DNA of 64,000 nucleotides from Halorubrum persicum (lineage in GTDB: Archaea; Halobacteriota; Halobacteria; Halobacteriales; Haloferacaceae): NCBI RefSeq assembly GCF_002727125.1, contig NZ_NHOA01000043.1, positions 1-64,000 on the forward strand, given 5' to 3'. Made by a program: the position numbers and the translations under genes. Positions 61,516 to 61,965 of this stretch are shown one piece after another. The notes beneath the pieces were generated by a model. That model was not told where the DNA came from. It saw only the letters and a list, made by a program, of their open reading frames with translations, and made no database searches. Position 1 is the first letter of the stretch. Each line of letters begins with the position of its first letter.

Positions 61516-61573
61516 GACGGTTCCGAGCTCGAAGGCTCGAACGACTGTTTATCCGCGACCGTCGAGCGTTCGT

Positions 61574-61965
61574 CAGTGAACTCCTCGAAAGCTCCAGCCG
61601 CTCGTTTTTGAGTGGTTGACGGCAGCGCCGCGGTGAACACCGCCAAAGCCCCAGCCGCTCGGCTGTACAAAATCATTGACACCGCGAACACCGCCAAAGC
61701 CCCAGCCGCGAGGACTCGTGCGGCTCGCTGCGCGCTTCAGTCGCTCGCGGTGCTCGCTCCTTCCAGTGCTTGTGTCGCCGAGCTTCGCCCTCGCGACTGC
61801 CCCTTTGAGTCCCTCCCTACACACTGTAACCGCAGCCTCACGCCTCCCCAGCCTCGTCGGTCGTCCTCCGCGTTGCTTCGGACGACCGACTCCCTCGCAC
61901 GCGCTCCTCGCGGCCGTTGGCCGCTCGGAGGCGCGCGCCACCGCGACCGAGGATTTATAAGAACA
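61574..61965. repeat. Repeat and hairpin-rich noncoding region
   Basis: The 541-bp gap between msrA and ribH. Three copies of a ~29-bp core GTGAACACCGCCAAAGCCCC + AGCCGCTCG lie at 61576-61604 (diverged), 61633-61661 and 61684-61709; the first two end 16-19 bp later in TTGAC. From 61710 the sequence is built of GCTCGC/CGCTCGC words. A perfect 11-bp inverted repeat (GTCGGTCGTCC/GGACGACCGAC, 61856-61866/61880-61890) and GCGGCC-GTT-GGCCGC (61910-61924) form strong hairpins. TTTATAAG at ~61954-61961 could drive ribH with a ~75-nt leader. Such repeats resemble Halorubrum intergenic elements as I remember them. Confidence 0.7.

Follow-up and report, generated by a model that had tools for sequence, protein, structure and literature searches.

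High-copy palindromic repeats of the REP/BIME kind, which are GTAG- or CGTC-tagged, lie between genes as tens to hundreds of hairpin copies built from mosaic modules, favour sites between convergent and unidirectional genes, and fold as single strands (PMC3733652; PMC2817692). Archaeal MITEs, such as the Sulfolobus SM families and those of Haloquadratum, are short, non-coding and multicopy (PMC10969869); candidate structured RNA motifs known from comparative genomic searches (PMC2864571), like Rfam families, combine conserved unpaired nucleotides with covarying stems, and CRISPR arrays consist of spaced repeated cores. The gap between msrA and ribH in the window, the whole stretch of 64,000 nucleotides analysed here, is occupied by one copy of a dispersed non-coding element (about 61548–61961, minus strand) to which each of these systems bears some likeness.

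As in REP/BIME sequences, the copies are numerous, intergenic and palindromic, with a structured single strand. However, at ~260–400 bp, with three hairpins and tandem units, the element is far larger than the 20–40 bp REP unit, has the feet GGGTGGGACTG and GGGGCTTTCGAGGTGTT in place of a GTAG/CGTC foot, contains a module, M3, with conserved internal loops and cross-genus covariation, and has no adjoining tyrosine transposase. An IS200/IS605 or RAYT partner was rejected, because no PF01797 match (RAYT, HUH Y1 transposase) was present in its own genome and none of 30 Y1 loci from the genus carried the element. Unlike archaeal MITEs, it keeps a fixed position across species and shows neither target duplication nor recent bursts of near-identical copies, nor a partner transposase in a search that covered the IS200 type only. 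Since it departs from REP sequences in unit size, foot and RAYT, and from MITEs in target duplication and recent copies, it was classed in neither family. M3 covaries beyond controls, as a structured non-coding RNA would, but the element differs from the described RNA motifs and Rfam families in its massive amplification in one genus, and M3 in other genera lacks a promoter and a constant gene context. In contrast to CRISPR arrays, in which unique spacers split identical repeats, whole 57-bp units repeat here, with no unique spacers and embedded in a larger element. We file the element as a variant of the "intergenic mosaic palindromic element" kind. None of the haloarchaeal genera looked for is named in PMC2864571, and no description of the element was found in the open-access literature; the subscription literature may hold one.

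Architecture of the element in the msrA–ribH gap

In the R orientation, which is the minus strand of the window, the element runs from a TATA-like hexamer through hairpins H1 and H2 and the ~117-nt module M3 to at least one 57-bp right unit. The parts of the copy in the gap are as follows.

61548–61961, minus strand: whole element copy, right units through left TATA-like hexamer
61955–61960, no strand: TTATAA, left boundary; in relatives 12–16 bp outside GCGGTGGCGCG, before gene starts and stops alike
61934–61944, minus strand: left-end box GCGGTGGCGCG
61897–61938, minus strand: hairpin H1; its outer stem is followed by a bulged C and a mid stem, then by the invariant tandem GA/GA and an inner stem that varies
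61891–61898, minus strand: constant GCGAGGGA, joining H1 and H2
61856–61890, minus strand: hairpin H2, hypervariable in sequence, palindromic in nearly all copies
61836–61855, minus strand: constant box GAGGCTGGGGAGGCGTGAGG
61695–61811, minus strand: module M3, whose structure covaries throughout the order (109.2 bits and E 9e-23 with model R1)
61684–61712, minus strand: right unit 3, overlapping the M3 3′ end (GGGGCTTTGG)
61633–61661, minus strand: right unit 2
61576–61604, minus strand: right unit 1, outermost
61548–61554, no strand: TTTATCC, a degenerate version of the consensus TATA-like word, belonging to the outermost right unit

A profile of 116 copies reads, from the left, TTATAA, 12–16 bp, GCGGTGGCGCG, H1, GCGAGGGA, H2, GAGGCTGGGGAGGCGTGAGG and a variable linker, followed by GGGACTCAAAGGGGC, M3, GGGGCTTTGGAGGTGTTCACCG and then ...CCACTTATAA, so that the left and right ends differ from each other. 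The 57-bp repeatable unit spans GGGGCTTTGG to TTATAA; the window copy has two extra right units, and one copy in a relative (G026) has five further units in exactly 57-bp steps. The three 29-nt cores that the initial annotation had described, 57 and 51 bp apart, are exact, lie at 61576, 61633 and 61684 and correspond to the right units, and both of its perfect hairpins (11-bp arms at 61856–61866/61880–61890, and GCGGCC/GGCCGC at 61910–61924) are exact as well. It rightly set the cores apart from a CRISPR array, but the irregular spacing that it saw resolves into a true tandem unit of period 57, repeated exactly in the relative. The TTGAC that ends the first two cores is present and proved to be a degenerate spacer word between units, and the feature first delimited at 61574–61965 is real with revised, longer boundaries, from the degenerate TATA at 61548 to the TTATAA at 61955–61960. 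With two mismatches allowed, the motif AAAGCCCCAGCCGCG occurs three times in the window, always in the msrA–ribH gap, against 0.21 expected and with 0 of 100 shuffles reaching three. The gap had been judged non-coding, and this judgement holds: no more than 93 of 169 copies open the candidate leaderless frame with GTG, the frame is interrupted at many different lengths, and a leaderless protein from GTGAACACC was rejected, as its frame is not conserved.

Solo or degenerate right-unit pairs lacking the main body were observed at two loci (L024, at G000:C87:20126-20210, and L071), so the units can stand alone or persist as remnants. Some copies (L006, L084, L168, L420 and in G026) have a small double-hairpin module, for example CGCCGGCGCTACGCGCCGGCTGCCAGAG..CTCGCTGG, inserted in H2 or M3; this module resembles a nested smaller repeat.

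Distribution among the Halobacteriales

The first reading had taken repeats of this type to be dispersed in Halorubrum and had named uniqueness to this locus as the outcome that would tell against it. A search with the segment found 27 places in its own genome, and all 35 Halorubrum genomes searched (its own and 34 relatives) carry the element. The exact 23-base core was present in at least 120 stretches, and among the 80 matches listed all were from Halorubrum save one uncultured archaeon. Using model R1 on six Halorubrum genomes of 2–3 contigs each, we counted at least 101, 96, 92, 59, 48 and 10 copies of M3, which among the matches listed lay on one contig per genome; in PLSDB, only one Halorubrum plasmid gave a match, a partial one. 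A consensus query matched 141 of 195 Halobacteriales genomes and 51 of 66 genera, outside Halorubrum mostly through M3, and the full H1-H2-M3 architecture occurs in other genera too. No match to model R1 was found outside the Halobacteriales among 148 sampled genomes of the phylum. In 400 kb stretches, one M3 copy was present in each of two other genera, compared with 15 matches in G026. These results demonstrated that the element is an ancient intergenic mosaic, present mostly in tens to >100 copies per Halorubrum chromosome, and that M3 is common to the Halobacteriales. Phage records held no match to the element, and a 15-base pattern scan of viral contigs gave 25 matches that may be chance.

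In one further genus (g35; three genomes), M3 often stands in inverted 5′–5′ pairs, ~33–130 bp apart, with no H1 or H2 between them. Eight contigs of the window's own genome start or finish within or beside the element, indicating that it breaks short-read assemblies.

Covariation and the folding strand

In 28 cross-genus M3 sequences with equal arms, 98.6% of the 784 stem cells pair. Compensatory double changes were found in 19 of 28 pairs (12.2 in shuffles and at most 8 in slid structures), and 145 cells carry them (mean of 37 when shuffled, at most 22 when slid); the outer helix, for example, switches from GAAAG/CTTTC to GGAAG/CTTCC and GCAAG/CTTGC. Across 48 cross-genus sequences, 21 of 24 predicted pairs showed such double changes. 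The GGG tracts flanking the C-G pair of M3 are unpaired and conserved; a G-quadruplex contact in molar K+ is conceivable, as speculation. The tandem GA/GA of H1 is present in 56 of 56 distinct copies and its stems covary. H2 differs in sequence between almost all copies and is still palindromic, 97% of 186 copies beating their shuffles by >5 kcal/mol. The initial annotation had considered a structured RNA just upstream of ribH, to be abandoned if neither a transcript nor covariation in the hairpins was found; compensatory changes across genera uphold the structure, but the tie to ribH was lost, as the element is not bound to that gene.

On the R strand, G.T exceeded A.C in stem P1 by 15:3 across genera and 55:12 in Halorubrum (9:3 and 14:7 by distinct contexts), in a test that is alignment-sensitive and whose restriction to P1, which excludes constant mismatches, was partly chosen after a first-pass count over whole hairpins had come out near even by distinct contexts, with no strand bias. 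In H1, R-strand G.U to A.C was 28:9. This preference of G-U over A-C, about 3–5 to 1, indicates that the minus (R) strand is the folding one, and it is as expected for a single-strand fold, whether of RNA or of single-stranded DNA, which it does not tell apart. Fold z-scores of the whole element favour the other strand (plus −4.25, minus −1.31); the minus value is weaker because that strand is G-rich and its shuffles fold well too.

A known Rfam RNA was rejected: no family matched the element down to permissive thresholds, and the sub-threshold matches were to human lncRNA or microRNA models only. One of these, to mir-4433 at L336:251-319, scored 38.9 bits against a gathering score of 77 and appears to be an artefact of the G-rich base composition. 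Collectively, these tests established the element as a dispersed, non-coding, covarying and single-strand-folding mosaic. Haloarchaea serve as models in archaeal genetics, yet this element, which ranks among the most abundant non-coding sequences in a well-sequenced genus, matches no Rfam family. For compensatory mutation to maintain a fold across a whole order, something must bind it or some process must read it, and this partner or process, once found, would open either archaeal REP/BIME counterparts or a new RNA class.

Position among genes

Using gene calls from a home-made script, both neighbours were called for 118 copies: convergent genes flank 50 of them, tandem genes 49 and divergent genes 19, compared with 88, 287 and 166 among the background gaps of ≥60 bp in the same DNA; none of the 118 overlaps a called gene. 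Between tandem genes, the R strand is sense in 22 cases and antisense in 27, so a strand-specific cis role is not apparent.

The explanation that we favour, and to which this analysis gives about an even chance, is that the element is an archaeal counterpart of the bacterial REP/BIME mosaics, acting in a similar way behind genes and maintained by gene conversion. The minus (R) strand would fold into three stable hairpins, either as nascent RNA or as single-stranded DNA; lying mostly behind genes and in gaps where two genes converge, these may block read-through or protect transcript ends, and the copies would stay put while their hairpins are swapped by ectopic gene conversion, not by transposition. 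What counts against this explanation is the TTATAA built in at both ends whatever gene ends adjoin, which a pure read-through block would not need.

The TTATAA word at the element ends

A TTATAA no more than 24 bp beyond the left end was found in 20 of 46 copies facing a gene start and 28 of 63 facing a stop, that is ~44% compared with 3% of background windows. Its equal frequency before starts and stops indicates that it is part of the element, and its reading as the promoter of a neighbouring gene was rejected on the same ground. The left motif is CGAYYRY-TTATAA, with a CGA-like word upstream; haloarchaeal promoters have a TATA of the form TTWT with an upstream BRE, CGAAA (PMC4983044), and the left motif fits a putative R-directed promoter starting near H1.

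This bears on a second reading, possible but rather unlikely, that the element is a dispersed ncRNA gene: from the left TATA near H1, an R-strand H1-H2-M3 RNA would be transcribed to act in trans, perhaps by protein binding, and Halorubrum would have amplified an RNA kept at few copies in most haloarchaea. The frequent TTATAA 12–16 bp outside the left end, the BRE-like word upstream of it, the RNA-type covariation and conserved internal loops of M3, and the few M3 copies in other genera are consistent with such a gene; however, over half of the copies have no TTATAA at the left end, the word is palindromic and hence ambiguous in direction, and ahead of M3 the other genera show neither such a signal in a fixed position nor an A+T peak. 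To judge from these sequences, we likewise regard it only as a tentative proposal that M3 is an uncatalogued structured RNA of the Halobacteriales and, in Halorubrum, a promoter-bearing RNA gene at ~100 chromosomal loci in several species, with fixed loci and hairpins swapped by gene conversion.

The same word could be the target site of a MITE-like, non-autonomous transposon family that is mostly inactive now. The many intergenic copies, the existence of empty orthologous sites and the difference in copy number between species (at least 10 to at least 101) would suit such a family, but the comparison of orthologous sites, which had been suggested as a check for presence, absence and duplication, did not: the two flanks of a copy resemble each other no more than flanks of different copies do, and truly empty sites have no TTATAA, the only sites keeping it being those with element remnants. 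TTATAA as a target-site duplication was rejected on these two grounds. Together with the missing Y1 link, the one-contig pattern among the matches listed and a share of at most 2% of within-genome pairs reaching 95% identity in any module, this makes the transposon family improbable, and the non-autonomous mobile element of the initial annotation, in the usual sense, is not supported, given that neither a duplication nor an IS200-type transposase link was found and that position and orientation are fixed.

Locus history and module exchange

The element was recognised upstream of ribH in most of 30 Halorubrum species, in both major clades, and at syntenic loci its orientation is the same in 272 of 276 comparisons; the choice of many such loci for carrying the element biases presence and not orientation. 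Core identity was 0.847 between orthologous copies and 0.843 between random pairs, within-genome copies are no closer than between-genome copies, and the modules behave independently. One orthologous pair shows 100% identity over H2, the linker and M3 but differs in H1, and at the contig ends of one genome (G060) two loci have 186 identical bp in common inside otherwise different elements. From this pattern we infer that sequence is replaced through ectopic gene conversion in copies that are also strongly constrained; saturated divergence, which could mimic it, is the weaker alternative. A fixed position combined with free exchange of hairpins makes these loci a natural gauge of ectopic gene conversion. 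Polyploidy has been shown for other haloarchaea, and Halorubrum is probably polyploid.

At the msrA–ribH loci of 30 Halorubrum genomes, the orientation of msrA relative to ribH is reversed in a single clade (10 of 24), and two inverted copies of the element often flank msrA. Exchange of msrA as a cassette was rejected, as both trees give a single clade-level inversion. These observations touch the least probable of the readings considered, a quite unlikely one, in which the element is a site of DNA-level recombination or chromosome organisation, whose extruded hairpins would promote exchange between copies and shuffle genes such as msrA. The inverted copies around msrA in many species and its differing orientation between two clades speak for it, as do module exchange between copies and the single-replicon pattern among the matches listed; against it, the inversion was one event, two flipped species have no copy there, the G.U excess indicates a single strand, and high copy number alone would passively yield the same exchange. 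A second ribH homologue, 58% identical, was observed in one Halorubrum genome (G012:C16:75002-75400).
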